Shown: positions 1 through 44,337 of the stretch, piece after piece | Numbering within the stretch: the stretch's first letter is position 1 | How the letters are laid out: every line of letters starts with the position of its first letter | Assembly (NCBI RefSeq): GCF_000429325.1 | Contig: NZ_AUBQ01000012.1 | Coordinates: 124,001 to 188,000 of the forward strand | Length of the DNA stretch: 64,000 bases | Direction of reading: 5' to 3' | Origin: Fundidesulfovibrio putealis DSM 16056 | Lineage (GTDB): Bacteria > Desulfobacterota > Desulfovibrionia > Desulfovibrionales > Desulfovibrionaceae | Notes under the pieces: generated by a model | Told to the model about the DNA's origin: nothing | Databases searched by the model: none | What the model saw: the letters and a program-made list of their open reading frames with translations, nothing else | Position numbers and translations under genes: made by a program

Positions 1-1
1 A

Positions 2-1411
2 AAACTCGTGCGGGCCGTGACCCTGCCAGCGGCGGATTTCGACACGGATCCCTCGAACTCAAAGCGATCCGCCGCGATACTTGAAGTGACACGCCATTAC
101 CTCCTGGACATCCTCTCCCGATACGCCCGCTTTACTCGTTTTGACAGACGTACAGGGAGACGACAGCCATGCAATCCGCCAAAAGAGGTTGCGGAGATTG
201 TCCTTGCTCGGAAAGGTTTCTGGAAGGTTCCTGTTCTGCGTGGGGTCTTGAACTGCCCAACGCTTCGGGCCGACGGGACGGTCATCGCCGCACCAGGGTA
301 TGATCAAATAAGCGGGTACTTCCTAGCTCATAGTCTGAGGATCAACCTCGCTGATGAACCTTCGGCGAAGGATGTCCAGAACGCCCTCAAGAAACTGATC
401 AACCTACTCTCTGGCTTCTCGTTCGTCGGAGATGAAGACCGTTCTGTAGCCCTGAGCCTTATCATGACCTCTGTCATCCGGTCTGCACTAGATTGCGCCC
501 CATTGTCGGTAATCTCCGCAACGACTCGCGGTAGTGGTAAGAGCACTTTGGCCGACATCTGTTCTGCCATCTCACAGGGACGCAGGAGTACCGTTCTGTC
601 CTCGACAACCGATCGGGAGGAGTTCGAAAAACGACTTACGGGATGCCTTATAGGGGGAGACCCCATGGTCAACATGGACAATATTAACGGTACGCTAGAG
701 TCCGATTTGCTTTGCCAGGCTGTCACTTCGGAATCTCTGAGAATCCGTCCTCTTGGTGGAAGCGGTCAGATTGAAATTCCCAACACAGCCCTGTTTTGCG
801 CCAACGGCAACAACCTAACTGTCAGCGGGGACCTTGCTCGTCGGACCATCCTGTGCAAACTGGACCCCGGCCTCGAGCGTCCAGAGGAACGGACATTCCC
901 CTTTGATCCAGTCGCGTTGGCCCTTGCGACTCGGACCTTGTACGTCGAAGCTGTCCTGACCATCGTGAGAGGCTATCTTGCAGCGGGCAAGCCCAACATG
1001 GGGCTTACCCCCTTTGGCAGCTTCGAACGGTGGTCGGCACTGGTCCGGTCGCCATTGGTTTGGGCTGGGATGGTCGATCCGTGCAAAAGCCGGGTGGCTG
1101 TCATCGAAGGAGACCCAGATGCCCAGTTGCTTAAGGAGATGCTTGTTGAGTGGCACAAGATTTTTGGGCGTACCCCAAAGACCGTGAAGGAGGTTATTGG
1201 AGTCGCTACCGCTGATCATGATGGGATGTTGTATGAAATTCTCGATGCCATCGCTGGGGATCGCAGTGAGATTAACGCCAGGAGGCTGGGGCACTGGCTC
1301 AAACGCAACATTGGCCGGATCGCGAATGGTCTAAGGGTGGAACAGCATTCAAGCTCCAGCAGGGTCCATTGGAAGGTCATACCCGTTGGAAGTGGGCATG
1401 ATCGGTTTTGA
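2..1411 (+). CDS. Phage/ICE-type replication helicase-like ATPase, 5'-truncated
   Basis: The frame is open back to the first bases of the window, so the N-terminus is missing; about 470 residues are visible. A P-loop (ATTRGSGKST, about residues 171-180 counted from base 8), an acidic Walker-B-like segment (MVNMDNI, about 219-225) and a possible arginine finger (GDLARRTI, about 273-280) fit the AAA+/SF3-like helicase half of primase-helicases carried by prophages and integrative elements. It probably unwinds DNA for replication of the host element. A nuclease gene and an iteron-like array lie just downstream, which suits a replication module. The exact family (D5-like, DUF927/DUF3987 type) cannot be fixed without a profile search. 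The 3' end of the gene runs into 9-bp direct repeats. Confidence 0.7.
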   Translation, partial: KLVRAVTLPAADFDTDPSNSKRSAAILEVTRHYLLDILSRYARFTRFDRRTGRRQPCNPPKEVAEIVLARKGFWKVPVLRGVLNCPTLRADGTVIAAPGYDQISGYFLAHSLRINLADEPSAKDVQNALKKLINLLSGFSFVGDEDRSVALSLIMTSVIRSALDCAPLSVISATTRGSGKSTLADICSAISQGRRSTVLSSTTDREEFEKRLTGCLIGGDPMVNMDNINGTLESDLLCQAVTSESLRIRPLGGSGQIEIPNTALFCANGNNLTVSGDLARRTILCKLDPGLERPEERTFPFDPVALALATRTLYVEAVLTIVRGYLAAGKPNMGLTPFGSFERWSALVRSPLVWAGMVDPCKSRVAVIEGDPDAQLLKEMLVEWHKIFGRTPKTVKEVIGVATADHDGMLYEILDAIAGDRSEINARRLGHWLKRNIGRIANGLRVEQHSSSSRVHWKVIPVGSGHDRF

Positions 1412-1425: not shown

Positions 1426-1602
1426 CTCTACCCCCACGTATGAGAAGTATCAGGACAGTTTATATACAGGTGGTGAAACAAACCATCAAAAGCGACAAAA
1501 CATTCAGGATGAAAACAAGACAAGGACACGCAGCTTTGAGACACAGCCTTCCTGAATTCGGTCTTGCAGAGATCAGGTATCTTAACCAAGATCGGGGCCA
1601 AT

Positions 1603-2163
1603 ATGGGCGTGAGTGCCAGCATGGCGAGTAAAACCATCCCATACGCCCCGCTTCGGATCGTGGTAGATACCCGTGAGCAGCGCCCCTATCAGTTCGAGAA
1701 GTACGACGTGGAAGCCATCCGGCATACCCTGAAGACCGGGGATTACTCCCTGGCCGGGTACGAAGATCGTGTGGCCTTCGAGCGTAAATCCTTGGATGAT
1801 CTGATCGGCTGCCTCACCACTGGCCGGGATCGCTTCGAGCGCGAACTTGCCAGGGCCAAGGGGCTCGACCTCTTCGCCGTCATCGTGGAAGGGACCATGC
1901 AAGAGGTGAGGGAGGGAAGATACCGAAGTCGGATTAACCCTCATGCCGCGCTCCAGAGTATAATTGCTTTTCAGGTACGTTACGGCACTCAATTCGTGTG
2001 GGCCGGATCAAGGGCCAATGCGGAATACGCGACCTACTGGATGCTTGAGAAGTTCAAGCGAGAGCAGGAATCCGCCAAGGGGGATACTCCGCCTGCCGAG
2101 AACGTGAGGGCCAGTGGAGAGTCACAGGCTCCGAAACGAGGTCGAGCACCGAGGGCCAACTGA
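1603..2163 (+). CDS. ERCC4-domain nuclease
   Basis: About 186 residues. The N-terminal half carries the ERCC4/XPF nuclease signature in order: VDTREQRPY, then GDYSL, then an ERKSLDDL segment, giving the acidic and E-R-K residues of the ERK-D active site. Such small ERCC4 proteins in phages and islands are predicted to cut branched or flap DNA. The C-terminal 35 residues are low-complexity and basic (KRGRAPRAN at the end). Start choice: ATG 1603 has GGGG five bases upstream; ATG 1621 and TTG 1564 are in the same frame. A clear hairpin terminator follows. Together with the upstream helicase it forms a plausible replication/recombination module of the element. Confidence 0.8.
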   Translation: MGVSASMASKTIPYAPLRIVVDTREQRPYQFEKYDVEAIRHTLKTGDYSLAGYEDRVAFERKSLDDLIGCLTTGRDRFERELARAKGLDLFAVIVEGTMQEVREGRYRSRINPHAALQSIIAFQVRYGTQFVWAGSRANAEYATYWMLEKFKREQESAKGDTPPAENVRASGESQAPKRGRAPRAN

Positions 2164-2371: not shown

Positions 2372-2694
2372 TGTTGACCAAAATTCGACCTGATCTCGGT
2401 TTGCCGCCCGTCCCCCGTTGGCGTCCCCCCTGGCCCTTTTTTATGGCACGGGACCGTGGGCGCACATGGCCCTCGAAGCCTGATCTATCCTCCCCCGCTA
2501 TCTGGCCCTATTTACAGTAATCAGAAAGGCAAAATAATCATCCTAGCGGCTAAGCCGACCTTCCATATACCCTGGAGGTTTGCGACGTTTTTCAGGTCGG
2601 GATAGCTACTACAACAGTAAGCATTTCGAAGGGGCCGCTGGGCGAAAGGAAGCTCGGGAGAGGGAAGCGCTCACGTAGAGCTTGGCCGGTGGCA

Positions 2695-2755
2695 ATCGGA
2701 CAGATCGGACAGGATCGGACACCCATCGGACGGGTCTCGGACAAACAATCGGACA
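2695..2755. repeat. Phased block 1, motif ATCGGACA x6
   Basis: Six copies of TCGGAC followed by A (G once); five of six are preceded by A. The linker to block 2 is 68 bp, longer than the ~35 bp between later blocks. Confidence 0.85.
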
Positions 2756-2815
2756 CGCGACTTCATCCGAGATGATGGCACGGACTCCATATTCTTCCCT
2801 GCGGCTATCATCGGT

Positions 2816-2876
2816 TGCGGACAGTGCGGACACTTGCGGACAGCATTCGGACAGTCTGCGGACGCCCCTGCGGACA
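2816..2876. repeat. Phased block 2, motif TGCGGACA x6
   Basis: Six CGGAC copies; five are preceded by TG and one by TT. One copy ends GGACG rather than GGACA. Confidence 0.85.
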
Positions 2877-2903
2877 CCCTGATCTTCACCCGCTGTGCCG
2901 AGT

Positions 2904-2965
2904 TGTGGACAGCGTGGACAGTAATGGACTGCTTCTGGACAGTCCGTGGACATTCCGGTGGACGC
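2904..2965. repeat. Phased block 3, motif GTGGACA x6
   Basis: Six TGGAC copies with the more degenerate flanks of an older or decaying block (one TGGACT, one TGGACG). Confidence 0.85.
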
Positions 2966-2992
2966 CCCCGAACATCACCCCTTGTGCCGAAC

Positions 2993-3074
2993 TGTGGACA
3001 GTGTGGACAGTTGTGGACACCGTGTGGACAGTTGTGGACACCGTGTGGACAGTCTGTGGACACTTTTGTGGACA
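2993..3074. repeat. Phased block 4, motif TGTGGACA x8
   Basis: Eight perfect TGTGGACA copies. The pitch is 9, 10, 11, 10, 11, 11, 12, i.e. the standard pattern with the 10+11 step pair duplicated in tandem (21 bp). Confidence 0.85.
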
Positions 3075-3101
3075 GCCTGAACTTCCCCGCATGCGCAGGA
3101 A

Positions 3102-3162
3102 TGTGGTCACCGTGGTCAGGTGAGGTCAGCGTGTGATCAGCCTGTGACCCCAAAAGTGGTCA
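3102..3162. repeat. Phased block 5, motif GTGGTCA x6, diverged
   Basis: Cores TGGTCA, TGGTCA, AGGTCA, TGATCA, TGACCC and TGGTCA keep the 9-10-11-11-12 pitch although three copies carry substitutions. Confidence 0.8.
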
Positions 3163-3232
3163 CCCTTGGCTTGATCGGGCCAGCAGCAGGCGCTGATGAT
3201 GATCTATGCCAGGACGTCGGCTGCCCAGACCA

Positions 3233-3949
3233 TCAATACAACCACTCCTCATGGCTGACCGGCAGACGGTTGAGCTGCTCCCGGTAGAACCGCCACTTCG
3301 GCATGAGCCGGTCCATGAGAGCGACGAAGCGCGGGTTGTGCGTGGGTTCCAGCAAGTGGGCCAGTTCATGGACGACGAGATACTCCAGGCAGTCCTTGGG
3401 CTTCTTGGCAAGGTCGGTGTTGAACCGGATGCAGCGGGTCGCCGGGTTGCAGCTCCCCCATCGGGTCTTCATCCTGCGCACGAAAAACCGTTCGACCTGC
3501 ACCCCGATGCGCTTCTCCCATTTCTTTATCAGCGGAGGAGCCGCCGCTTTCACCTGGCCCCGATACCACCCATCGACAATCGCCTGACGCTTTTCTTCAT
3601 CCGTTCCGGGGCGGACTTTCAGGGTCATCGTGCGGTGTTCAAGCTCGACACGGGGAGCCTCATCCACTTCGACCACTCGCATAAGGTAGCGTCGCCCCCA
3701 GAGGAAATGGCTTTCCCGTTCAAGATATTCGCGGGGGGTCTCCCGTTCCTGGTCACGGAACTTCTTCTGCTGCTTCCTGATCCAGTCGAGCTTCGAGATG
3801 GTGAAAACGCGGATGGTGTCCAGGTCCATGCGCGATGGGGCGGCAACGCGGACCTTGCCGTGCGGGGGGTAGACGCTCAAGTGGATGTTCTTGATGTCCT
3901 TCAGCACGACGTCCACCTCAATATCTCCGAGGTTGATCTGAGTGACCAT
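3233..3949 (-). CDS. YgjP/WLM-type zinc metallopeptidase (DUF45) of the hsd operon
   Basis: 238 residues from ATG 3949. The C-terminal half has the HExxH zinc motif (VVHELAHLLEP) followed by the downstream ligand region THNPRF, and a MKTRWGSCNP segment typical of the DUF45/YgjP family. These putative metallopeptidases often sit in type I restriction loci; their substrate is unknown. The start overlaps the hsdR stop as TGATG, so translation is coupled and the protein is the last gene of the hsdMSR operon. An upstream in-frame TTG (3952) is possible but less likely. A role in turning over HsdR or protecting the cell from restriction is only a guess from position. Confidence 0.85.
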   Translation of the reverse strand: MVTQINLGDIEVDVVLKDIKNIHLSVYPPHGKVRVAAPSRMDLDTIRVFTISKLDWIRKQQKKFRDQERETPREYLERESHFLWGRRYLMRVVEVDEAPRVELEHRTMTLKVRPGTDEEKRQAIVDGWYRGQVKAAAPPLIKKWEKRIGVQVERFFVRRMKTRWGSCNPATRCIRFNTDLAKKPKDCLEYLVVHELAHLLEPTHNPRFVALMDRLMPKWRFYREQLNRLPVSHEEWLY

Positions 3950-6900
3950 CAATATTCGCTCTGCGCCTTGATGATGAGGAATATGCGCTCCACCTCTGCC
4001 TTGTCGCCATCCAAGAGTGGCAGCAGCGCCGCCTTGATGATGTTCTCCTTGGCGAGGTGTCCCCGCCAGCCATCGGGGCGCGTATCCTTAATCGCTTGGT
4101 CCAACTTCAGGGCCAGCTCCTCATTCTGATTCAGGTTGTTGTACAGCGCCCGCCTACCCGGCGTGTCCAGCGTCTTCGGCGTCTCTTCCGATTGCCCGGC
4201 CTCGACCTGCTTTGCCAGCGCGGCGATACGTTTCAGGTACTCCTCGTATTCGATGGCCTTCGCCTTGCGCGCGGCGATGATTTCGTCCAGCAGCTCGGAC
4301 ATCTTTTCGTAGTAGTCCGGGTCGCTCAGATGCCCCTTGATGATCTTGCTGCGGACGTTGTTCTCGATGGTCTCGGCCACGGCATTCTTGTTGCCCTTCA
4401 TCCCGGCGAGACGCTCATTGATGGCCTTAGCGATGCCGGTCTTCACGATCAGTTCCAGCAGGCCCATGTTGTCGAAGGGGGAAATCGGCCTCGGCATGTC
4501 GGCTTCGATGTAGGTGTCGATCAAGTGCCGCATGTCCGCCTCGTAAGCCTTCAGGTCAAGCTCTTCCCCACTGGCCTTTCGCACAACATCCCGGACTTTC
4601 AGGAAGTGATCCAGTTGCTGCTTGATGCGGCTGACGTCGACTGGCGTGTACCCTGCGGGTTCCATCTCATCGGCGATGTTGGCGTAGGCGCGGATCAGCG
4701 CCACCGTGGCCTTGTAGAGCGCGGCACGTTGTGGCTCATGTTCCTTCAAGTCCGATGCGATCTCGGTGTTACCGCAGAAATAGTGGATATGCTCCAGCTC
4801 CCCTTTCGGCGGCTTGACCGGTTCGCAGAGCAGGATGATGGATTCCAGGGTGGCATCGAGCCGTTCTTTCCCCGTCTTGAGGCGATCGTGCAGAAGCACT
4901 TCGGGACTGACCCCTTCCGCACTATGATCCAGTTCGGAGGTGTAGACCGCGATGGCGTTTTCGACCTTCTTGAACAGGTCCTTGTAGTCCACGATGTAGC
5001 CGAAGCTCTTGTCCTCGCCGTCCAGCCGGTTCGTGCGGCAGATGGCCTGGAACAGGCCGTGATCCTGCATGGATTTGTCGATGTAGAGATAGGTGCAGGA
5101 CGGCGCGTCGAATCCGGTGAGCAGTTTGTCCACCACCACCAGCAGCTTCATGTTCGCCGGTTCCTTGATGAACAGTTCCTTGGCCCACTCCTCGTAGGTC
5201 TCTGTCTTGGTCATGCCCGGCTTGGCTTCGACATCCTTGAGCAGCTCTGTGTAGGTATTAAAGACGAATTTCTTGTCGGTATCTTTGTTGTCCCCAGTCT
5301 CCTCCTTGGTCACATCTTTCACCAGCGGGTTGTAGGAGGTCACCACCGCGCATTTGTCCTTGAAAGATGAGGCCTGGAATAGCTTGAAATACTTGCACGC
5401 CTCGTAAATGCTCGAAGCCACGAGGATGGCGTTGCCGCGATGATCGGATAGGCGGGGCTTCAGGCTGAAGTCGTACTCTATGTCGTCCACCACCCTTGCC
5501 ATCCGGGACTTTGACGAAAGCACATGCTCCATCGTGCCCCAGTGCTTCTTAAGCTCGTCCTTCTGCCAGTCATTGAGAAATTTTGTTTTGGCGTCGAACA
5601 GCATGTCGATCCTGAACCCCGAACCAAGGCGCTGGTCGATGTCCCGCGCCTCGTAAAGCAGGTCCAGCACTACCCCGTCCTCGACGCCCTCGCTGAACTT
5701 GTAGGTATGGATGTAACCGCCAAACACTTCCAGGCTGGTCTTCTTGTCCTTCTTCAGGAGCGGCGTGCCCGTAAAGCCGATAAATACGGCGTTTGGCATC
5801 ATGGCCTTCATCACCTGGTGCAGCTTGCCGGTCTGCGTGCGGTGGCACTCGTCCACGAAGACGAACACCTCGCCCACAGTCTGACTGGGCTGGGCTTCCA
5901 GTTCCTTGATGAAGGCATCGAAGTCGTCCACGTCCTTGCGCCCAAACTTGTGGACCAGGGAGCACAAGAGACGCGGGGTGGCCTGTCCGAGCTGGCTGAT
6001 CAACTCTCGTCCGCTGCTGGTACGTTTGATCGGCTCTCCCGCTTCCATGAAGACGCGCTCGATCTGCTTGTCCAGCTCATCGCGGTCAGTGATGATAGCG
6101 ATTCGGGCGTGCGGATTGTTCTCCAGAATCCATTTCGCTAGCAGCACCATCACGATGCTTTTACCGCTGCCCTGAGTGTGCCAGATGATGCCGCCCTTGC
6201 GCTCGCGGACATGGCGTTGCGCGGCCTTGATCCCGAAATACTGGTGGACGCGGGGCAGCTTCTTCCAGCCGCCGTCGAAGAGCACGAAGTCGTGCATCAG
6301 CTCGATCAGCCGGTCCTTGCTGCACATCTTCAGCAGGTACTTGTCCAGCTTGTACCGGGTGTTGTCCTGTTCGTCTTCCTTCCACTTCAGGAAGTACTTC
6401 TCCTCTGTGCCGACGGTGCCATATCGCATTCCCTCGGAGTCGCTCCCCGCGAAGACGAACTGCACCGTGCTGAAAAACCACGCGTTGAACTCGGGACGCT
6501 GGTTGGACAGATTCTGGCGAATGCCGTCGCCGATGGTGGTGCGGCTGTTCTTCAACTCCAGCACGCCAATGGCGATGCCGTTCACGTACAGCACGATGTC
6601 AGGACGCCGCTCCCAGTTGCCCTTGAGGGTCACCTCCTCCGCGATGGCGAAGTCGTTCTTTTGCGGCTCCTCCCAGTTGATGAGATGGACGGTCTCAGTG
6701 GGCTTGCCAGCTTCGGTCTTTACCGGCACGCCGTAGCGCAGCAGGCTGTAGACGGCCTTATTGTTCCCGTAGAGGCTGCGCCCGGGGTTGTTGACCTCGG
6801 TGCGGAGCAAGTGAATGGCTCTGCTGATCTGGGAAGAGGTGTAGCCGCACTTCTTCAGGTGGGCGGTAAGCAAACCCTCCTCGACGTTGGTGTTGCCTTC

Positions 6901-7002
6901 ACGGTCTGACCAGTCGCCAAGGTTGCTGTAACCCATCTCATCGCGGAACAGAGCGATGACGCGGTTCTGGGTGACACGCTCGGATTTGCCGATGTCGCTC
7001 AT
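3949..7002 (-). CDS. hsdR: Type I restriction enzyme, R subunit
   Basis: 1,017 residues from ATG 7002. It is the motor and nuclease subunit that translocates DNA and cuts unmodified DNA. Visible in order: a PD-(D/E)xK nuclease site (D135 in RPDIVLYV, E149 and K151 in GVLELK), a Walker A (TQGSGKS, about 277-283), a DECH box (384-387) and the TGTP helicase motif. Length is normal for HsdR. The start overlaps the hsdS stop (ATGA), which excludes the longer reading frame that would run into hsdS. No frameshift or lost motif is seen, so it should be active. Confidence 0.95.
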   Translation of the reverse strand: MSDIGKSERVTQNRVIALFRDEMGYSNLGDWSDREGNTNVEEGLLTAHLKKCGYTSSQISRAIHLLRTEVNNPGRSLYGNNKAVYSLLRYGVPVKTEAGKPTETVHLINWEEPQKNDFAIAEEVTLKGNWERRPDIVLYVNGIAIGVLELKNSRTTIGDGIRQNLSNQRPEFNAWFFSTVQFVFAGSDSEGMRYGTVGTEEKYFLKWKEDEQDNTRYKLDKYLLKMCSKDRLIELMHDFVLFDGGWKKLPRVHQYFGIKAAQRHVRERKGGIIWHTQGSGKSIVMVLLAKWILENNPHARIAIITDRDELDKQIERVFMEAGEPIKRTSSGRELISQLGQATPRLLCSLVHKFGRKDVDDFDAFIKELEAQPSQTVGEVFVFVDECHRTQTGKLHQVMKAMMPNAVFIGFTGTPLLKKDKKTSLEVFGGYIHTYKFSEGVEDGVVLDLLYEARDIDQRLGSGFRIDMLFDAKTKFLNDWQKDELKKHWGTMEHVLSSKSRMARVVDDIEYDFSLKPRLSDHRGNAILVASSIYEACKYFKLFQASSFKDKCAVVTSYNPLVKDVTKEETGDNKDTDKKFVFNTYTELLKDVEAKPGMTKTETYEEWAKELFIKEPANMKLLVVVDKLLTGFDAPSCTYLYIDKSMQDHGLFQAICRTNRLDGEDKSFGYIVDYKDLFKKVENAIAVYTSELDHSAEGVSPEVLLHDRLKTGKERLDATLESIILLCEPVKPPKGELEHIHYFCGNTEIASDLKEHEPQRAALYKATVALIRAYANIADEMEPAGYTPVDVSRIKQQLDHFLKVRDVVRKASGEELDLKAYEADMRHLIDTYIEADMPRPISPFDNMGLLELIVKTGIAKAINERLAGMKGNKNAVAETIENNVRSKIIKGHLSDPDYYEKMSELLDEIIAARKAKAIEYEEYLKRIAALAKQVEAGQSEETPKTLDTPGRRALYNNLNQNEELALKLDQAIKDTRPDGWRGHLAKENIIKAALLPLLDGDKAEVERIFLIIKAQSEY

Positions 7003-8240
7003 ATGAGTCGGACCCTCCCAGTAAGAAGTTCCTGCATCATGCCTTGCTTGATCTGGCGGGCCTTGGATAGCTTTGACTCCAGAGTGGAGAGTTCGGCGTC
7101 CATGTCGGAGAGGATTGCAGAGATGGCGGTTTGTTCGGCGAGGGGAGGAAGGCTTACTGTAATTTCCGAGAAAGCAGGCCATCTTAAGCTGCCTCTACGA
7201 TCTACAGAAGAGCATGTCGCAGTTTCGAACTTCTGACGATAACATTCTAATTTTAACAGCCTATGCAAAAAATAACTATCGACCTCTTCGTTTACTGAGA
7301 ATACAACATAAATTGGGCTGACGAGTGCCCTGTCGTAGAAGCTCTGAAGTCCAATTGACCCTTCCTCGACATGGTTCGCTGGGTAGCCAATCTCTCCTCT
7401 CTTGATGATTTTGTAGCCACTGGTGTCTCTGCTAAATACTTGGTTCTTGAAGTAGCCTAGCGAATCGACGAAGCCAAGGTGCTTTGAGCAGGTCAAGACG
7501 GTCAGTTGCTCACCCAAACTGTTTTTTTCGCATTTTGGCGAAGCAATTTCTGCAATTCGTTTGACTTTCCACTCCCCACAGAATCCCAGCAACCGCTTGC
7601 TGCCGGTAAGCAACTCCTGCATCGCCCCCTGCTTGATGTTGCGTTTCTTGGCGATGAGTTGCTCCAGGGATTCGATGAGGGCGTCCGCATCGGAGAGTGC
7701 GGCGGCGATGGCTTCTTGCTCTGCCTTGGTGGGGGGGAGGGGAATTGGAAATGATTCAAGAATCGTTCGATCAATCTTAACCATCGAGTTGCTGGAACCA
7801 CGAGCATTATCGGAAAAATATCGCCTCCCAGGGGACGACAAAAGGCAGAACAAGAGATACTCGGGATTTAATGAGTCCCCCAGTCTTATCCTCATAAGAA
7901 GATCAGGATATGCACAGGGGGTCGGTTCCCCTCGATAAACGCCCGCCAATCCGACGCGATCAGGTGTATTCGACCTGCTAACAACGACATCATCGACGAC
8001 TAGCAGGTTCTGCAAAACACGTGGGTCGTTGGCCGGAGCGTGCTTTACCCCCGAAGGGTTAAGCCCATTGGGTGATACGGCAGACAAAGATAGTATCCAT
8101 ACCCCTGTCGGCTGGGAGGAGCACACAGGGCTGTAACCATTTCTGATGGGTTCGCGGAGGTTGTTACCGAGTTGGGATAACTCCCAGTCCTCCGGGATCA
8201 CCCCTACCTCTGTCTGCTTGTAGCCGGGCTTCACGTCCAT
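6999..8240 (-). CDS. hsdS: Type I restriction enzyme, specificity subunit
   Basis: 413 residues. It sets the DNA target of the HsdM/HsdR complex. Two target-recognition domains (about 1-165 and 220-365) are each followed by a conserved helical spacer ending in the same sentence: KQGAMQELLTG (about 205) and KQGMMQELLTG (near the C-terminus). The second recognition domain (about 7,150-7,560) is visibly more AT-rich than the conserved parts, as expected for swapped recognition domains. It starts 10 bp inside the end of hsdM and overlaps hsdR by 4 bp. The recognised sequence cannot be read from the protein. Confidence 0.95.
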   Translation of the reverse strand: MDVKPGYKQTEVGVIPEDWELSQLGNNLREPIRNGYSPVCSSQPTGVWILSLSAVSPNGLNPSGVKHAPANDPRVLQNLLVVDDVVVSRSNTPDRVGLAGVYRGEPTPCAYPDLLMRIRLGDSLNPEYLLFCLLSSPGRRYFSDNARGSSNSMVKIDRTILESFPIPLPPTKAEQEAIAAALSDADALIESLEQLIAKKRNIKQGAMQELLTGSKRLLGFCGEWKVKRIAEIASPKCEKNSLGEQLTVLTCSKHLGFVDSLGYFKNQVFSRDTSGYKIIKRGEIGYPANHVEEGSIGLQSFYDRALVSPIYVVFSVNEEVDSYFLHRLLKLECYRQKFETATCSSVDRRGSLRWPAFSEITVSLPPLAEQTAISAILSDMDAELSTLESKLSKARQIKQGMMQELLTGRVRLI

Positions 8241-10936
8241 GAGAAACCCATCCTCTCCAGGTGCTTGTTTACCCTCTCTTCCAGTTCAGCCACGCGGCTG
8301 ACCATCTCTGGCAGCGGAGCTTCGTACCGTTCCGCCAATTCCTTCACCCGCTGGGTGAGCGACTGACTCACCCGGTCCATCTCGCCATGGATGGCTCCGT
8401 CCAGCGCGGCAAGCCATTTGTCGTCCACCACCAGCGTCTGGACGTCGGCCTCGGTGAGCCTGGGATATTTCGCGTAGGCTAGGGCATCGAGTTCAGCTTT
8501 AGCATCCTTTAGCGCTTGCTTATTTGCATGGATTTGTTCGGTCAATTCAATGAACGCGTTAAGCACCTGAGGGTCAATAAGTTCTTCATGGATAGGCTCA
8601 TGCTGGAGCTTGTCCATCATACAACTCATGGATGACTCAAAAATAGCGTCGACGAGCTGCTTTAATTCTTGTTGTGTTGCAAACGCATTATTATACTCTT
8701 GTAGTAGCGCGCGTTCTTCGATGTCATTTGTATTCTTTATCCTGGCATTAATTTTTGACTTTGTGGGCTTTCCTCTTGCTCCTGCAAGAGATTTAATGCG
8801 GATATCTCTACATAATTCAGCAAAAACTTCTTGAATCTCGTCATGCTTCTTCTGTGCATCCGAATAGCTCCTGAACGTATCAGGCATCACAACTTCCCAA
8901 GCGCTCAACATTGCTTCTTTGAGGGAGGAAACAGCATCGACTTTACTTGCAACTCCATTGAGTGCCCCACCATCGCCCCCGTGCTCCTCTTCCAGCTCGG
9001 CCATGCTGGCGCTGACAGCCTCCAGGTCGGCTGCGAGTTGGTCAATGGCCTCCTGCTCCTTGGCGAAATAGCGGGCCACGACCAGACCCTTGGGCACAAG
9101 GTCGCAGGTCCACCCTTTGTCCTTCTCCTTGCCCTGCTTGTTCTTCACGATGATGCGGCTGGTCTCGGCCTTCCACCCGTCGGAAGCGATGAGGTAGCAG
9201 TCATCCTGCATGGTCTCGGCCCAGTAGTTCATCAGGTGCTGGTAGACGTCGTAGGGGTCGATGAGGGGCTTGCCGGTATAGTGGACAAGCAGGTCCTCGG
9301 CCAGCGCGGTGATAACGTCCTTGGGATGGCAGCCAACCTGCAACTGTTTGAGCGTTGCGGCGCTCTTCTGCCTCCATGCGTCGAAGTGGGCGTTCATGCC
9401 GGTGATGAAGTCGGCAAACTGGGGATGCTCGTAGATGGCCGATTTGATGACGGCCTTGTCCACGGCGAGGTCCAGGTAGCCGGGGCGGTTGTCCTTGAAC
9501 AGGGCCTGCTTGAGCTGCGGGCAGACGTCCCAGTAACGCTGGAGGGCGTCCACGTCGGCAACCGGGATGCCGCCCTTCAAGTGCCCCTCGATGTCCTGGA
9601 GGTCCTCGGCCTGCTGGCTGTCGATGTAGCGCGGCAGGTTGAGGTTGAACTCGTTCTTCTCGATCTCCTCCACTGGCACCATGCGAGAGTATCTGGGGAC
9701 CTCGATGCACTTGTTGAAGACGTCCACGATCTTGTGGATGTCCTGGTCGCGCAAACGGTTCTTGGGGCCATCCTTCATGAAGCCAGAGCTGGCGTCGATC
9801 ATGAAGACACCCTTGCGGGCATGGGCGTCCAGCTTGTCCACCACCACGATGCAGGCCGGGATGCCCGTGCCGTAAAAGAGGTTCGCGGGGAGGCCGATGA
9901 TGCCCTTTATGTAGCCCTTTCGGATGAGCGCCCGGCGAATGTCGGCTTCTGCGTTGCCCCGGAACAGGACGCCGTGCGGCAGGATGCACGCGCCCTTGCC
10001 CGTGCTTTTGAGCGAGCGGATGATGTGCAGCAGGTAGGCGTAGTCGCCCTGCTTGGCAGGAGGCGTGCCGAACGGTTGGAAACGGTCGTAGGGATCGTGC
10101 AGCGGGTCAATGCCGGTGCTCCAGCGCTTGTCGCTGAAGGGCGGGTTGGCGACCACGAAGTCGAAGGTCTTGAGCGTGCCTCCCTCCTTGAATCGGGGGG
10201 CTGCCAGGGTGTTTCCCTGGACAATTTCAGCATCGGGGTTGTCGTGCAGGATCATGTTCATACGAGCGAGGCCACTCGTGGCCGCATCCTTCTCCTGCCC
10301 GTAGGGCGTAACCTTGGTGGTAGCCTCGTCTGCCACCTTCAACAATAAGGACCCGGACCCGCAGGTGGGATCATAGACAGTTGTGCTCTTGGTTGTCTGA
10401 GCTTCGCGGATGCCGATGATCTTCGCCATGACGCGGCTGACTTCAGCAGGGGTGTAGAACTGGCCCTTGCTCTTACCGCTCTCCGTGGCGAAGTGGCGCA
10501 TCAGGTATTCGTAGGCATCCCCGAGAATGTCGTCGCCGTCTGCCCGGTTCTTTGAGAAGTCGAGGGCCTTGTTCTCGAAGATGGCGATGAGGTTGGTAAG
10601 CCGCTCCACCTTCTCCTTGCCGGTTCCGAGCTTTGTGGCGTCGTCGAAGTCCGGCATGTCAGAGAGCTTGTTGGCGTCAGCCAGGGGGGCGATGATCTTC
10701 TTGTTGATCTGGTCGCCAATGTCTGACTTGCCCTTGAGCGCCACCATGTCCGCGAAGCTGGCTCCCGCCGGGATGGTGATCGGCGCATACGACAGGTCGG
10801 CGTATTTGTCGCTGACATACTTGATGAAAAGCAGGACGAGGACGTAATCCTTGTACTGACTGGCATCCATGCCGCCGCGAAGTTCGTCGCAGGATTGCCA
10901 GAGGGACGAGTAAAGTTCGGACTTCTTGAGGGCCAT
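8231..10936 (-). CDS. hsdM: Type I DNA adenine methyltransferase subunit with long C-terminal extension
   Basis: 901 residues. N6-adenine methylase that modifies the host target. Seen: an HsdM N-terminal helical domain (1-140), the SAM motif DPTCGSGS (189-196) and catalytic NPPF (264-267). Compact HsdM proteins end near 500-550 residues; this one has roughly 350 more, rich in charged helical sequence and probably coiled coil (for example ELEERVNKHLERMG at the end). The DNA for part of this extension (about 8,440-8,990) is clearly AT-richer than the methylase core. A TATAAT on the minus strand at 11,047-11,042 is a possible -10, without a good -35. First gene of the hsdM-hsdS-hsdR-peptidase operon. 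Confidence 0.93.
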   Translation of the reverse strand: MALKKSELYSSLWQSCDELRGGMDASQYKDYVLVLLFIKYVSDKYADLSYAPITIPAGASFADMVALKGKSDIGDQINKKIIAPLADANKLSDMPDFDDATKLGTGKEKVERLTNLIAIFENKALDFSKNRADGDDILGDAYEYLMRHFATESGKSKGQFYTPAEVSRVMAKIIGIREAQTTKSTTVYDPTCGSGSLLLKVADEATTKVTPYGQEKDAATSGLARMNMILHDNPDAEIVQGNTLAAPRFKEGGTLKTFDFVVANPPFSDKRWSTGIDPLHDPYDRFQPFGTPPAKQGDYAYLLHIIRSLKSTGKGACILPHGVLFRGNAEADIRRALIRKGYIKGIIGLPANLFYGTGIPACIVVVDKLDAHARKGVFMIDASSGFMKDGPKNRLRDQDIHKIVDVFNKCIEVPRYSRMVPVEEIEKNEFNLNLPRYIDSQQAEDLQDIEGHLKGGIPVADVDALQRYWDVCPQLKQALFKDNRPGYLDLAVDKAVIKSAIYEHPQFADFITGMNAHFDAWRQKSAATLKQLQVGCHPKDVITALAEDLLVHYTGKPLIDPYDVYQHLMNYWAETMQDDCYLIASDGWKAETSRIIVKNKQGKEKDKGWTCDLVPKGLVVARYFAKEQEAIDQLAADLEAVSASMAELEEEHGGDGGALNGVASKVDAVSSLKEAMLSAWEVVMPDTFRSYSDAQKKHDEIQEVFAELCRDIRIKSLAGARGKPTKSKINARIKNTNDIEERALLQEYNNAFATQQELKQLVDAIFESSMSCMMDKLQHEPIHEELIDPQVLNAFIELTEQIHANKQALKDAKAELDALAYAKYPRLTEADVQTLVVDDKWLAALDGAIHGEMDRVSQSLTQRVKELAERYEAPLPEMVSRVAELEERVNKHLERMGFSWT

Positions 10937-11162
10937 ACTGCTGATATTCCTGATTAATCCTTGAGAATTGAGGAGGCTGTCTTGTGTGCTTCACTCGAAG
11001 CAAGCTGATAGGGAAACCCCATCAGTCGAAAACTGTCAAGGATTATAGACGAGTGGAAAGAGTAATACGAAAGTGCGGAATATGCTGCCGGGCTGGAGTG
11101 TGTCATCACACGACATGGCGGATGGCACACCGGTATGGACACGCAACAGGAACCGCGCAGCC

Positions 11163-11206
11163 CCTGTGCGGACGTTGCACCAGAATCTCTTGGGGTGGAT
11201 GGAACC
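11163..11206 (+). repeat. Dispersed cassette-boundary repeat, copy between hsdM and the HTH gene
   Basis: It begins CTGTGCGGACGTTGCACC and ends GGTGGATGGAACC, the same boundaries as the copies at 12,310, 12,571, 15,363 and 15,621. A perfect GC-rich hairpin follows. Confidence 0.75.
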
Positions 11207-11440: not shown

Positions 11441-11926
11441 TCACATTCCATTCTTTAACGCGACACGTCGCACAAACTCCTCGCAAATTGCCATAGACAA
11501 AGCGTGTATAGTCTCTTCACTCATTCCACCATCAACACCAAGCTGTACAAGTTCGCTCCTTGCCCCCAAGTATTCGTCTATACCAAATTTTGACTCAGCA
11601 GATTCAACCGCATGCGTGAGTGTCTCGGCCTTGCTTAAGCCAGTAGCATTACTTGGCGTTACGTATTTCCAACCATGACGCTTCACCATTCTATCGTGCC
11701 CATCTGCTATAAACGTAGCAAGTGGCATCCCGTAATGTTCAGCAATTTTCTCTTGCAGATCAAGGCTTGGGTCAAGTGACCCTGAACATATCTCACTTAC
11801 AATGTGCTCAGACACGCTTATTGCTTTAGCAACTTTTGCAGTCTCTGCACTCACATTTGCACCATCCAGCCTGACACGAAGTGCAAGCCTCACTGCCGCC
11901 AAACTTGTAACTGCACCAATTTCCAT
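11441..11926 (-). CDS. Small helix-turn-helix protein, possible regulator
   Basis: 161 residues from ATG 11926, preceded by an AAGGGGG ribosome site. Residues about 20-75 resemble an XRE-like helix-turn-helix (AKAISVSEHIVSEI, then SGSLDPSLDLQEKIAEHYGMP). The remainder has no motif I recognise. The coding DNA is AT-richer than its neighbours, suggesting a separate origin. It stands alone between two copies of the cassette-boundary repeat, upstream of the hsd operon on the same strand. It could be an element or restriction-locus regulator, but that is inferred only from the fold and the place. Confidence 0.6.
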   Translation of the reverse strand: MEIGAVTSLAAVRLALRVRLDGANVSAETAKVAKAISVSEHIVSEICSGSLDPSLDLQEKIAEHYGMPLATFIADGHDRMVKRHGWKYVTPSNATGLSKAETLTHAVESAESKFGIDEYLGARSELVQLGVDGGMSEETIHALSMAICEEFVRRVALKNGM

Positions 11927-12309
11927 TAAATACCCCCTTTCCGTGTTAATCAATTCCCAGCAAGTGAGCATCCAAGGCCGAATTGGGGCCAGCATAACAC
12001 ATACGGGAGCCAGGGAAAGGAAAATTGTATTTAATACTGGCAGGTTACAGCATCCTTGCCTAAAGACATGCCCCCAAGACGATTTTCGTCACTTCAGGCG
12101 AGAATCACCTCTCGGCCCCTGGTCTCGACAGGACTGGGTGTACGACGTCGAACTTCCCGGCGATTGTTCGACGATCTGGCCGCAGAGCTGAGTAGGCAGC
12201 CAACCCAGAAAACGCATCTGGATCGCCTTGCCAACACTTCCCTGCCCGGAGTCATCAGAATCGTTTTACACGGGGGGATTGGATGGGAAAAATGCGTTTC
12301 ACCACCTGC
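11927..12309. other. Non-coding gap before the first long repeat
   Basis: Nothing convincing seen. Short frames exist but lack ribosome sites or recognisable content. It holds the presumed promoter region of the HTH gene. Confidence 0.5.
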
Positions 12310-12613
12310 CCCTGCGGACGTTCCCATGGAACCCTTGCCGGGTGGATGGAACCGCTGACCTGGGGGCCGGGGGAGCCCCCCCACCCTATTCAAGTGGGCC
12401 AGAGGGAGGAGTGGTTCACGGAAAAGCGGCAAAACTACCAAGCAACACAGTACAAAGAAGGCTCGAAAAACGATCCTGGCTCACTTTGCCTACGTAGTAC
12501 CCCGGCAAGGGAGATAGACGCAGAAATTTGCCTGTCTGCGCTGGATAATCTGTAGTTGTTTTTGCCTCCCCCTGCGGACGTTCCACCTGCACCTTTACCG
12601 GGTGGATGGAACC
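12310..12613 (+). repeat. Long dispersed repeat, copy A (pair with 15,363-15,663)
   Basis: Two boundary motifs (12,310-12,354 and 12,571-12,613), each running from CTGCGGACGTTCC to GGTGGATGGAACC, enclose about 215 bp. That interior matches copy B over most of its length, including identical CAAGCAACACAGTACAAAGA and AATTTGCCTGTCTGCG stretches. It carries no convincing gene. An additional GGTGGATGGAACC half-site follows at 12,653-12,665. The two copies bracket the umuDC-yedK block in direct orientation. Confidence 0.85.
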
Positions 12614-12782
12614 TCTGGTCGGGGCTGGAAGAGGCTACTTCAACCGCTTCCAGGTGGATGGAACCACTAATTGGGGGCTGGGATGCAAGGAAGATTAATT
12701 GTCCGAAAGAATATGAACTAGGGAACGCGCAAAACAGTTTGAGAATTCCTTCAATTTAGTCTGAGAATTCTGAGCCTTCTTC

Positions 12783-14048
12783 TCAGCTGATTGTCACGCT
12801 AGGAATCTCCCCCCAAACCGTCGTAAACCTCGGCGACCTGTAATCCTGCCGCATGTTCCACTTTCTCTCCGTGCCGGTAGACGCCACAAACAGCGTTTCC
12901 CGGCCCCATTTGGTGTTCACCCTGTCCAGCACCCCCATCAGTTGCTTGCCCCGCTCGTCCGGCTCGCGTAGCAGCGACAACTGGGCCGTCCCCTCGTACT
13001 CGATGCCTGAAAGCATCACCCCCACCTTCTTATAGCGGAAGCCTGCCCGGAAGATCCGCTTCAGCGCCTCGCCGCCACGGCGCACGATCTCAGCCGTATG
13101 CGACGTGGGGGGCACCAGCGCCATGCTCGTTGCCTGGCAGTACTGCGGCTCCCCCTCAATGAAGGTGTTGGTCTGGATGAACACCAGGATGCTGTTGGCC
13201 TGCCCGCCCTGAGCGCGCAGCTTCTCGGCGGCGCGGCTGGCGTGCCGGGTCATGGCCTGTTCCATCTCCTCCAGCGTCGTGACAGGCCTGCCAAACGACC
13301 GTGAGGACACGATGGTCTTCTTGGGCGCTTCCGCATGCTGCATGGCGATACAGGGCACGCCGTGCAGCTCCAACCAGGTGTGCAGTCCGGCCACCGTCAT
13401 CTTCTTCTGCACCCATTCGCGCGACAGCCCCATGAAATCCAAGGCCGTCATGACGCCGCGCTCCTTCAACCGCCTGGCGTGGCGATGCCCGATGCCCCAG
13501 ACGTCCTCCACGTCCAGCGATGCCAGGAGCGCGTCCTTGTCAGGCCGATGCATCAGATCCAGCACGCCCTCGAACTCCGGGCGCTTCTTAGCCAGCTTGT
13601 TAGCGGTCTTAGCCAGGGTCTTGGTCGGCCCGACGCCGATGGACACCGGGATGCCCGTCCACTTGCGCACGGTTACGCGGATATGCGCGGCATACCCGCG
13701 CACGTTCTCCTGGAGCCCGGCCAAATTCAGGAAGGCCTCGTCGATGGAGTATATTTCCATGTCCGGCGTGAACATGGACAGCGTCGCCATCACCCGTGCG
13801 GAGAGGTCTCCGTACAGGGCGTAGTTGGAGGAAAACACGGCCACGCCGTGGCGCTTGAGCCGCGCCCGCGCCTGGAACTCAGGTTCGGCCATCTTAAAGC
13901 CCAGAGCCTTGGCCTCCGGGGAACGTGCAATGATACAGCCGTCGTTGTTGGTCAGCACTACCACCGGGCGACCGTTCAGGTGCGGGGCGAACACCCGCTC
14001 GCACGAGACGTAGAAGTTGTTGCAGTCCACCAGGGCAAACACGGGCAT
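12783..14048 (-). CDS. umuC: Y-family DNA polymerase V catalytic subunit
   Basis: 421 residues from ATG 14048 (MPVFALVDCNNFYVSCERVF). Error-prone translesion polymerase that copies past DNA lesions with UmuD'. The N-terminal DCNNFYVSCE and the SIDEAFLNL motif supply the catalytic acidic residues. A helix-hairpin-helix region follows (DVWGIGHRHARRLKERG) and then the little-finger domain. Length matches UmuC. It lies five bases after umuD on the same strand. Being on an island, next to an abasic-site protein and between repeats, it looks like a mobile mutagenesis cassette. No canonical E. coli LexA box is visible upstream of umuD. Confidence 0.95.
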   Translation of the reverse strand: MPVFALVDCNNFYVSCERVFAPHLNGRPVVVLTNNDGCIIARSPEAKALGFKMAEPEFQARARLKRHGVAVFSSNYALYGDLSARVMATLSMFTPDMEIYSIDEAFLNLAGLQENVRGYAAHIRVTVRKWTGIPVSIGVGPTKTLAKTANKLAKKRPEFEGVLDLMHRPDKDALLASLDVEDVWGIGHRHARRLKERGVMTALDFMGLSREWVQKKMTVAGLHTWLELHGVPCIAMQHAEAPKKTIVSSRSFGRPVTTLEEMEQAMTRHASRAAEKLRAQGGQANSILVFIQTNTFIEGEPQYCQATSMALVPPTSHTAEIVRRGGEALKRIFRAGFRYKKVGVMLSGIEYEGTAQLSLLREPDERGKQLMGVLDRVNTKWGRETLFVASTGTERKWNMRQDYRSPRFTTVWGEIPSVTIS

Positions 14049-14053
14049 GACGG

Positions 14054-14497
14054 TCAGGCCTTGTGAATGATGAAGGTTACCACTCCCCACACCGCGAAAT
14101 CCGTCTCCGGGGTGATCTCAACGGACTTGAAGGCATGGTTGGCGGGCTCAAGGAATATGCGCCCGTTCTTGCGGCGCAACCGTTTGACGGTGAAATCCCC
14201 ATCCACAACTGCTATGACGATCCTGCCGTTGACCGCGTCCAGGGCGCGGTCCACCACCAGGATGTCCCCCGGCTGGATGTTGTCTCCGGCCATGGATTCG
14301 CCTACCACCCGGACGAAGAAGGTCGCAGCCGGGTGGGACACCAGGTGGTCGTTAAGGTCCAGATGCTGGTCGATGTAGTCCTCGGCAGGCGACGGAAAGC
14401 CCGCCGGGATCAGCGAGAGTAGCAGCGGCAGCTCCAGCGGCTTGCCGGACTCACATCTCAGGACCTGGAAACTCGGATGATGTTGCAGGGAGCTCAT
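14054..14497 (-). CDS. umuD: UmuD-like self-cleaving SOS protein
   Basis: 147 residues. LexA/UmuD-type S24 peptidase that trims itself under RecA stimulation; the shortened form joins UmuC as polymerase V. Seen: a likely cleavage pair A32-G33 (IPAGFPSPAEDYID), catalytic Ser68 in VVGESM and Lys105 in FTVKRL. Length is normal for UmuD. Start ATG 14497; the ribosome site is weak. A TTGCCA and TACATC pair 17 bp apart lies directly upstream, but so close to the start that it would give a nearly leaderless message. Confidence 0.93.
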   Translation of the reverse strand: MSSLQHHPSFQVLRCESGKPLELPLLLSLIPAGFPSPAEDYIDQHLDLNDHLVSHPAATFFVRVVGESMAGDNIQPGDILVVDRALDAVNGRIVIAVVDGDFTVKRLRRKNGRIFLEPANHAFKSVEITPETDFAVWGVVTFIIHKA

Positions 14498-14647
14498 AGG
14501 GCTGCGATGTACCAGCGCGACTTTACATTGGCAAGAATAAGCTTACAAAGTATTGACGGGCAAGACACGGATACTGAATCTGGGCCAGGGCTTAGATCAT
14601 GAAAATTGTTCCGATGGCTGAGAGTGAGATCGCCAGGGAGGTGTTCG

Positions 14648-15343
14648 ATGTGCGGACGATTCGCGCTGGGCATACCGCGTAAGCGCCTGCAGGAGCGCTT
14701 CGAGCTGGCCGAAGTGCCGCAGGCCCCGGCCCGCTACAACATCGCGCCCGGCCAGCTGGTGGAGGCTGTCGTGCAGACTCCCGAGCGCAGGGAGATGCGC
14801 CTGCTGAAGTGGGGGCTGATTCCTTCCTGGGCTAAGGACAAGTCCATCGGCTACAAGATGATCAACGCCCGAGCGGAGACCGTGGCGGAGAAGCCATCCT
14901 TCAAGACTGCCATGCGGCGCAGACGCTGCCTGATCCCGGCTCAGGGATTCTACGAATGGCACGACGAGAACGGCCACCGCCAGCCCTGGTTCATCACCTC
15001 CCGCAACCCGGAGGATGTCCTGGCCCTGGCCGGGATTTGGGAACACTATGAGAGCCAAGAAGGAGAGATCATCGAAAGCGTGGCTATCATCACCTGCCAA
15101 GCCAACGAGCTGGTCTCGCCGCTGCACGACCGCATGCCTGTGATCGTCGTCCCGAAGGACGATGCCCGCTGGCTGGACCCGAAACAAAGCGACCCAGCCC
15201 AGGTGGCGGACATCCTGACCAGCCGTCCCTGGCCGGGCATGCTGGCGTATCGTGTGAGCACTAGGGTAAATTCACCGAAGAACGACGATTCGGGATTAAT
15301 CGAGATGATGTCAGGCCAGCAGGATGATGTACCGGAAAACTGA
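14648..15343 (+). CDS. yedK: SRAP-family abasic-site protein (YedK/HMCES type)
   Basis: 231 residues from ATG 14648, with an AGGGAGGT ribosome site. Starting here places Cys at position 2 (MCGRFAL). After Met removal this Cys forms the thiazolidine cross-link with abasic sites in single-stranded DNA, protecting them during replication. The other SRAP active-site segments are present: INARAET (Asn), GFYEWH (Glu) and PLHDRMPV (His). It is transcribed divergently from umuDC, forming a lesion-tolerance pair. The last ~20 residues are poorly conserved-looking and run up to the second long repeat. Confidence 0.93.
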   Translation: MCGRFALGIPRKRLQERFELAEVPQAPARYNIAPGQLVEAVVQTPERREMRLLKWGLIPSWAKDKSIGYKMINARAETVAEKPSFKTAMRRRRCLIPAQGFYEWHDENGHRQPWFITSRNPEDVLALAGIWEHYESQEGEIIESVAIITCQANELVSPLHDRMPVIVVPKDDARWLDPKQSDPAQVADILTSRPWPGMLAYRVSTRVNSPKNDDSGLIEMMSGQQDDVPEN

Positions 15344-15362
15344 CGGTCCATTTTCCAGGTCT

Positions 15363-15663
15363 CTGTGCGGACGTTGCCATGGAACCTTTACCGGGTGGAT
15401 GGAACCGCTGATCGGGTGCCGGAGGTCCCCCCCCACCCCGTTCAAGCGGGCCAGGGGGCGAGGTGGTTCACGGAATAACGGCGAAACGACCAAGCAACAC
15501 AGTACAAAGAAGGCTCGAAAAACGCTCCTGGCTCGCTTTGCTTGCGTAGACCCCGGCCAGGGGGATAGACGCAAAAATTTGCCTGTCTGCGATGGATAAG
15601 CTGGAGTCGTTTTGCCACTCCCTGCGGACGTTCCACCAGCGACAACACCTGGTGGATGGAACC
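15363..15663 (+). repeat. Long dispersed repeat, copy B
   Basis: Boundary motifs at 15,363-15,407 and 15,621-15,663 enclose an interior matching copy A at 12,310-12,613. In the right motif GTTCCACCAG can pair with CTGGTG and GGAAC of the 3' part, giving a bulged hairpin. A GGGGGGCTCCCCCC-type hairpin follows. Confidence 0.85.
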
Positions 15664-15736
15664 TATGAGCCGGGATCGGGGGGCTCCCCCCCTCGTCCAG
15701 CATATCCTGGAATATTTTGCAGACGGCTCTCAGGGC

Positions 15737-15757
15737 GGGTAACTTTTCGGGTAACTA
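15737..15757 (+). repeat. Tandem CGGGTAACT direct repeat, possible recombinase arm site
   Basis: CGGGTAACT at 15,737-15,745 and 15,749-15,757, followed by an AT-rich tract and then the putative attachment remnant. Arm-type integrase sites often look like this; no integrase gene is in the window, so it is only suggestive. Confidence 0.35.
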
Positions 15758-15809
15758 CATTTATATAATATTTTTTATTATTTTTTTTCAGGCACTTACA
15801 GGACAACTC

Positions 15810-15828
15810 GATTCCCCCCGCCCCACCA
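15810..15828 (+). other. tRNA/tmRNA 3'-end remnant, putative island attachment site
   Basis: GATTCCCCCCGCCCCACCA, directly preceded by CTC, resembles the T-loop, acceptor arm and CCA end of a tRNA or tmRNA, but no upstream tRNA body is present and one base is missing for a perfect fold. A terminator lies 56 bp further on, where a tRNA terminator would be. This is what remains at one end when an element integrates into a tRNA 3' end; the other end would be left of the window. Inference. Confidence 0.45.
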
Positions 15829-15883
15829 ACAGGACTTCCAGTACAGTCCGACAAAGTCCACATCCCCCAGGAATTTAAGGAAA

Positions 15884-15918
15884 AAGGCGGTCCGCAAGGG
15901 CCGCCTTCGTCCGTTTTG
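15884..15918 (+). terminator. Hairpin terminator beyond the putative attachment site
   Basis: AAGGCGG (15,884-15,890) pairs with CCGCCTT (15,901-15,907), extended by CC/GG around a GCAA loop; a short TTTT follows at 15,914. It may be the original terminator of the tRNA gene used as integration target. Confidence 0.6.
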
Positions 15919-16007
15919 GGCCGTTGACAGCCAATATATCTCTGAGTTGAGGCATGAGTATGACGACTGCCTCACGCTCCTGGATCAGTTGACTGCCATA
16001 CAAATCC

Positions 16008-42568: not shown

Positions 42569-44337
<1,769 letters not shown>

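Follow-up and report, generated by a model that had tools for sequence, protein, structure and literature searches.

How can neighbouring blocks of DNA keep one irregular spacing while the letters of the repeated motif change from block to block, and what kind of protein would read such an array? Both questions are raised by a repeat array in a stretch of 64,000 nucleotides from Fundidesulfovibrio putealis DSM 16056, which is referred to here as the window. The core positions of the array, with the core start defined as the first base of GGACA or its equivalent, were taken directly from the sequence, and they agree with the description in the initial annotation, namely five blocks with spacings of 9,10,11,11,12 bp and one duplicated step pair in block 4 (Table 1). 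This extra 10-11 pair adds 21 bp to block 4 relative to the other blocks. Block 5 is the least regular one, with GGTCA cores except for two of the six sites, which read GATCA and GACCC; for its fourth and fifth sites the script placed the start one base earlier (TGATCA, TGACC), and the core is read thereafter.

Table 1. Positions of the array blocks and of the other features of the integrated element (window coordinates unless the locus L002 is named).
Feature	Position	Strand	Description
tmRNA gene	L002 10693-11043		left of the window
Integrase	L002 11251-12480		left of the window
AlpA gene	L002 13358-13570		left of the window
DUF5906 helicase, 3′ part	1..1411	+	gene start left of the window
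ERCC4-domain nuclease	1564..2163	+	PF02732, 5.5e-17; next gene upstream of the array
Degenerate stretch	2500..2695	+	aligns partly with the pre-array region of G004
Block 1	2696..2755	+	cores at 2698, 2707, 2717, 2728, 2739, 2751; spacing 9,10,11,11,12; six TCGGAC sites, next base A in five and G in the fourth
Block 2	2817..2876	+	cores at 2819, 2828, 2838, 2849, 2860, 2872; spacing 9,10,11,11,12; five GCGGAC sites and one TCGGAC site
Block 3	2905..2964	+	cores at 2907, 2916, 2926, 2937, 2948, 2960; spacing 9,10,11,11,12; six GTGGACA-type sites
Block 4	2994..3074	+	cores at 2996, 3005, 3015, 3026, 3036, 3047, 3058, 3070; spacing 9,10,11,10,11,11,12; eight identical GTGGACA sites
Block 5	3103..3162	+	cores at 3105, 3114, 3124, 3135, 3146, 3158; spacing 9,10,11,11,12; six GTGGTCA-type sites, degenerate
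YgjP-like metallopeptidase	3233..3952	-	cargo adjoining the array
hsdR, hsdS, hsdM (type I restriction-modification)	3949..10936	-	cargo
attR	15808..15919	+	direct repeat of the ssrA 3′ end/attL (L002 11022-11134); right end of the element

The motif reads TCGGACA, GCGGACA, GTGGACA, GTGGACA and GTGGTCA from block 1 to block 5, and its letters are uniform inside the blocks and different between them (within-block agreement of 240 versus a maximum of 190 over 20,000 shuffles). A scan for agreement at the offsets 0, 9, 19, 30, 41 and 53 that leaves the letters free gives 36, 35 and 34 of 36 for blocks 1, 2 and 3 and 32 of 36 for block 5, against 26 for the best place elsewhere in the window and a maximum of 28 over 60 shuffled windows. 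With the letters fixed as GGWCA at the array spacing and up to three mismatches allowed, four matches are found in the window and none in 100 shuffles; block 5 is not among the four, and the match in block 4 is a sub-register of that block. Motif perfection declines from block 1 to block 5, with the exception of the perfect block 4.

The array is non-coding and fivefold. The mechanical frames that overlap it are at most 160 residues long, and none of the six that were scanned gave a Pfam match at the curated cut-off. Its RNA folding is no better than chance, with a z-score of +1.75 and 97 of 100 shuffles folding equally well or better. The blocks and spacers are not AT-rich, the AT fraction being 0.32-0.44 in 50-bp intervals from 2700 to 3199; the nearest AT-richer intervals lie at 2500-2549 (0.60) and 2200-2249 (0.66).

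The array sits in an element integrated at ssrA. The attL sequence is repeated at attR as 15 plus 97 identical bases with a one-base offset between them, which places the end of the element at 15919 and makes it about 18.9 kb long. The Pfam score of its DUF5906 helicase is 26.6, slightly below the curated cut-off of 27.6. To the right of the hsd genes, a frame with a weak HTH match is followed by UmuC, S24 peptidase and SRAP genes, which form SOS-type cargo at 12783-15343 beside attR. GGGTAAC motifs occur near attL (L002 11159-11204) and once near attR (15735-15746), and are candidate integrase arm sites. By eye, words resembling 'GWMEPL' are common to mechanical frames in the intergenic regions ~11073-11200, 12228-12750 and 15311-15703, possibly as a repeated element.

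Relatives of the array were sought in seven genomes of the genus, its own included, with the nuclease and a profile of six blocks as queries. In one of them, G004, an integrase, an AAA_25 ATPase and an ERCC4 gene are followed by two blocks spaced 9,10,11,11,12, and a protein fragment matching Pfam PriCT-1 (1.6e-7) stops shortly before the array. A damaged second copy of the array is present in the own genome (contig C5, 28 kb), where the pre-array fragment is 89% identical to the PriCT-1 remnant of G004, the first block is spaced 9,11,12 and the second 9,10,11,11,12. Both of these arrays thus follow a PriCT-1 remnant, and the window itself has only the degenerate aligned stretch, from which about 190 bp of a remnant of the G004 type appear to be missing judging by the alignment. 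G005 carries a degenerate GTGGTCA array that was overlooked by the six-block profile. G003 carries eight GGACA sites spaced 10,11,10,10,11,11,11, adjoining the same YgjP-hsdR cargo. G006 shares the insertion site and the hsd cargo, and no array was seen in it. The YgjP-HsdR module also occurs in G006 (L016, with HsdS and HsdM beside an ssrA gene) and in G003 (L120), in both with other replication genes alongside. Profile hits at E ≤0.01 were obtained in 17 of 288 genomes of the family, strong ones only in G000 and G004, and at E 0.001 in 2 of 395 genomes of a phylum sample (G000 and G302).

Is the geometry itself constrained, or are the five blocks the product of a recent duplication? The pairwise comparison covered the six blocks that share one geometry, namely blocks 1, 2, 3 and 5 of the window and the two blocks of G004; lengths differ in block 4, in the second copy's first block and in the G003 and G005 arrays, which were all omitted. 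The cores are 0.63-0.97 identical and the linkers 0.25-0.60, with 14-34 substitutions per 62 bases in each pair. Since the linkers have diverged to 25-60% identity with the cores and the spacing held, the blocks are not a recent duplication of an ordinary sequence, the outcome that had been named as a refutation. Length changes between copies of the window block lineage are whole step pairs of 21 bp, one gained in block 4 and one lost from the second copy's first block. The geometry is therefore real and under constraint, and the selection on geometry put forward in the initial annotation is borne out by the difference between cores and linkers. The placement of the motifs of a block on one helical face is supported as well. 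The window, G004 and G003 share a pitch of close to 10.6 bp. The exact 9-10-11-11-12 series did not hold as a universal rule, given the different series of G003 in the same genus and those of the phage lineages below; it is a trait of one block lineage. Retention of geometry while letters change recurs more widely than this series, and a search of related genomes with free letters recovers the same style of geometry in generalised form, not one exact series.

The profile hit in another family of the phylum connects this style of geometry with a gene. In G302, two genomic loci have a Prim-Pol/helicase gene with a TGTGGACA array inside it, one with 11 copies at spacings of 9,9,9 and then seven times 10, the other with seven counted copies at a spacing of 10. 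The gene is intact; it begins with Prim-Pol and has a weak AAA_25/DnaB match towards its end. The first locus belongs to a prophage that also has genes for capsid, prohead protease, HNH and terminase proteins. Relatives of the gene were found in 52 of 288 family genomes and in one archaeal virus, and in-gene arrays with other letters in 6 of 30 fetched family loci and in the archaeal virus, for example GCGTCA at 9,9,9,10,10,11,11,12 and GTCAAC at 9,9,9,10,11. Five of the six array-bearing family loci show a spacing that widens along the gene, and so does the archaeal virus until the last step; this virus, assigned to Methanomicrobiales, has an in-gene GTTGAA array at 9,10,11,12,10.

Phage genes for winged-helix/DnaB-like helicases, some of them fused to Prim-Pol, carry arrays of the same style in or before the gene, the letters being different and the spacing either graded between 9 and 12 or 10,11,10,10,10. 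The viral sample comprised 57 loci found by protein alone, from an alignment of eight such proteins. An array finder with free letters gave a score of at least 26 at 19 of them, the null maximum being 24 over 171 random loci with the same base-pair statistics; the remaining 38 loci have no array at this threshold. Real DNA served as a control: 8 of 47 ERCC4 loci pass, as does 1 of 15 weak profile loci, and all 19 other DUF5906 loci fail. One of the eight ERCC4 loci is the G004 array and the others, judged by their spacing, are mostly short coding or simple repeats, so that real DNA does yield false arrays. Ten of a total of 67 loci had been added after arrays were seen there, and all ten score at least 26. 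Clustering of 66 of the 67 helicases (one was unrecovered) at 70% identity gave 41 clusters, 17 of which carry an array. Eleven of these arrays have six sites, two have seven, and the others have 8, 9, 11 and 11; ACA is part of the consensus in 13 of the 17. The arrays of the phage helicase genes are defined by at least six repeats of a motif of 6-8 bp on one strand, spaced 9-12 bp, and the window array has these too.

Among the 70%-identity clusters the spacing shows a trend over the length of the array (permutation p 1e-4), and identical vectors of the first five spacings are shared by six pairs of clusters versus 0.86 expected (p 0.002), with 10,11,10,10,10 common to four clusters. A cruder clustering by letters gives weaker results (p 3.5e-4 for the global trend, Fisher p 0.056 for trend and p 0.21 for shared vectors). 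The direction of the gradient is mixed, with L207, L212 and L233 dropping from 11-12 to 10. L197, L203 and L201, whose proteins share 75-85% identity, have the steps 10,11,10,10,10 at the same place in the gene, with TCTACA-type sites in two of them and GTTACA-type sites in the third; several single sites are one letter off. L224, L240 and L190, at 40-49% identity to these three, have TGACAA, CCACA and TTACAG sites respectively, the spacing being 10,11,10,10,10 in the group of L224 and L240 and 10,11,10,10,9 in L190. In all six, and in L225, L185 and L207, the array starts lie within 5 bases of each other, at positions 5 to 10 from the start of the winged-helix alignment. The letters hence switch as a set and leave the geometry unaltered, which is also what the blocks of the window show.

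What fold do the proteins of these genes have? For the L186 protein, a model of the 300 residues at the C-terminus has a mean pLDDT of 84, and reading the order of elements in it gives a winged helix at about residues 11-74 and then a RecA core. Proteins of the L186 type match DnaB and RadA by sequence; Pfam DnaB_C is above the cut-off for L186 and slightly below it for L201. The best PDB fold matches of the model are again DnaB and RadA, with query TM-scores of about 0.4-0.5. A winged helix with a RecA fold is thus predicted for the array-gene protein. DnaB-type helicases are hexamers, and a hexamer suits six sites per array; each helicase subunit may take one site. The structure model of the C-terminus of the DUF5906 helicase is weak.

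We propose that the array represents the iterons of a phage-type replication origin read by a winged-helix hexameric helicase, and put the probability of this reading at roughly 0.7. The geometry, its context in the relatives and the arrays in or beside phage helicase genes are observed. The initiator would be a hexameric helicase with a RecA fold (DnaB-like/AAA_25). The six sites of each block would lie on one face of the helix, every subunit binding one of them through its winged-helix domain, and the hexamer would thereby be placed on the origin and loaded. The protein oligomer would set the geometry, which is kept within a lineage, and the winged helix would set the letters, so that all sites would change together as its specificity shifts. 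In the window, the original primase gene would have decayed and the block would have been tandemly multiplied to five non-coding copies in four letter variants, now sitting in an ssrA-integrated element with P4-like traits. The present reader may be the DUF5906 helicase of the element, a helper phage initiator, or none. The suggestion in the initial annotation of a multimeric protein as the reader thus stands as likely, and its link of the array to replication is supported; none of the results connects the HTH gene at 11,441 with the array. Several observations weigh against this reading. The element has a DUF5906 helicase, which is of another family, in place of a matching Prim-Pol/winged-helix gene, and G006 shares the insertion site and cargo without a visible array. 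The same holds for the lack of AT-richness in blocks and spacers, the arrays missing at DUF5906 loci and at 38 viral helicase loci, the clusters with the array outside the helicase ORF, the mixed direction of the gradient, the weaker statistics of the clustering by letters, the ten loci added after their arrays were seen and the false arrays in real DNA.

The nearest described origins, as far as the available portions of the reports go, are those of SaPIs and PICIs (PMC7581432, PMC6092414). By these descriptions, the iterons of PICI and SaPI Rep origins adjoin a helicase gene, as does the array. The legend of one figure gives the iteron sequences of several PICIs apart (PMC6092414), and the accessible text has PICIs always carrying two iteron sets that flank an AT-rich region (PMC6092414). 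Unlike PICI origins, the array has no AT-rich centre, and the two sets 3′ of rep by which these partial descriptions define PICI and SaPI origins are not seen in it. The origin and crr of P4 (X51522) also have 8-bp iterons, partly in same-strand runs spaced 9-11 bp, which read GGTGAACA on one strand and resemble GTGGACA of the window, and crr, with two 120-bp direct repeats, lies immediately downstream of the primase-helicase gene, which we count as a likeness. The sites of P4 occur in both orientations with mixed spacing, whereas those of the window form five same-strand blocks in several letter variants. Of the traits of a P4-like satellite, the element has an integrase and an AlpA relative, which P4 has as well, and its helicase shows no BLASTP similarity to P4 alpha. 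The pRN1 replicon, in the part of its description that is available, likewise combines a plasmid replication protein with a required sequence downstream of the gene (PMC4234260). The arrays of phage winged-helix/DnaB-like helicases are similar in being same-strand, mostly of six sites, with a pitch of about one turn and an irregular spacing kept within lineages. They differ in number and place: each is single, and 13 of the 17 clusters have it inside the helicase ORF (4 outside), whereas the window array is fivefold and non-coding; a cognate helicase of this type is absent from the window element, and G004 has its AAA_25 gene. PriCT and winged-helix fusions are described in PMC5862659, the available main text of which does not use the word iteron. 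The initial annotation named no described array of this exact geometry; in kind, described iteron origins (P4 ori and crr, PICI, SaPI) are close.

Could the blocks instead be what is left of a phage replication gene that has died, multiplied in tandem and now out of use? The primase remnants in G004 and the second copy would be expected from such a history, as would the degenerate arrays of G005 and C5 and the lack of a visible one in G006. Against this, TCGGAC is present at six of six sites of block 1 and GTGGACA at eight of eight sites of block 4, with the linkers between blocks only 25-60% identical; intact motifs amid diverged linkers imply that constraint acted after the blocks arose, and we consider a mere relic unlikely.

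Proteins other than an initiator could also line up along such blocks. The Cox and Apl proteins of P2-like phages bind direct-repeat arrays, and the element has an AlpA gene, so that a cooperative regulator or excision factor of the AlpA or Cox/Apl kind might polymerise along the blocks and control excision or transcription. Arrays of the same style, however, lie in or beside phage helicase genes and not at att sites, and near attL and attR the motif is a different one, GGGTAAC, which makes this role distinctly improbable. ParR and TubR sites too are short direct repeats with about one turn per repeat, and the array resembles them in this. That the array serves in partition as parC or tubC do, with a small centromere-binding protein wrapping it, is nevertheless very improbable, as the phage relatives of the array adjoin replication genes and the larger frames of the element, which were scanned, matched no segregation ATPase or centromere-binding family.

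Returning to the origin reading, why would one element hold several letter variants? The five blocks might be an origin-code panel for several helper-phage initiators, or a layered record of past initiator specificities, under the rule that the hexamer fixes the spacing and the letters are free and change together; we regard this extension as rather doubtful. Vibrio offers one force that would change iterons: in the available part of that report, a phage nuclease cuts satellite origins at their iterons, and satellites with iteron variants escape (PMC8263062).

If the origin reading holds, geometry alone, with the letters left open, could suffice to locate the origin arrays in a large class of phages and satellites; various phages and at least one archaeal virus have similar arrays within their replication genes or next to them. 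With six sites for one hexamer, the stoichiometry of initiator loading would be directly testable. L197/L203 versus L201, in which the sites have switched together between closely related helicases, would provide ready-made cases for the co-change of specificity and target, and the window adds an element that holds several letter variants side by side.

Some further clusters and repeats were seen in passing. On the minus strand of L014 (12861-12886), three GGACA sites spaced 10 and 11 bp follow directly after the stop of an AAA_25 gene, in gene direction. Prophage-like ERCC4 loci in L005, L006, L007 and L009 (about 730-1110) have clusters of GGGGACA, GGGTACA or GTTACC in two orientations before the nuclease gene. 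The window contains two further short tandem repeats, at 43901-43947 and 47004-47056.
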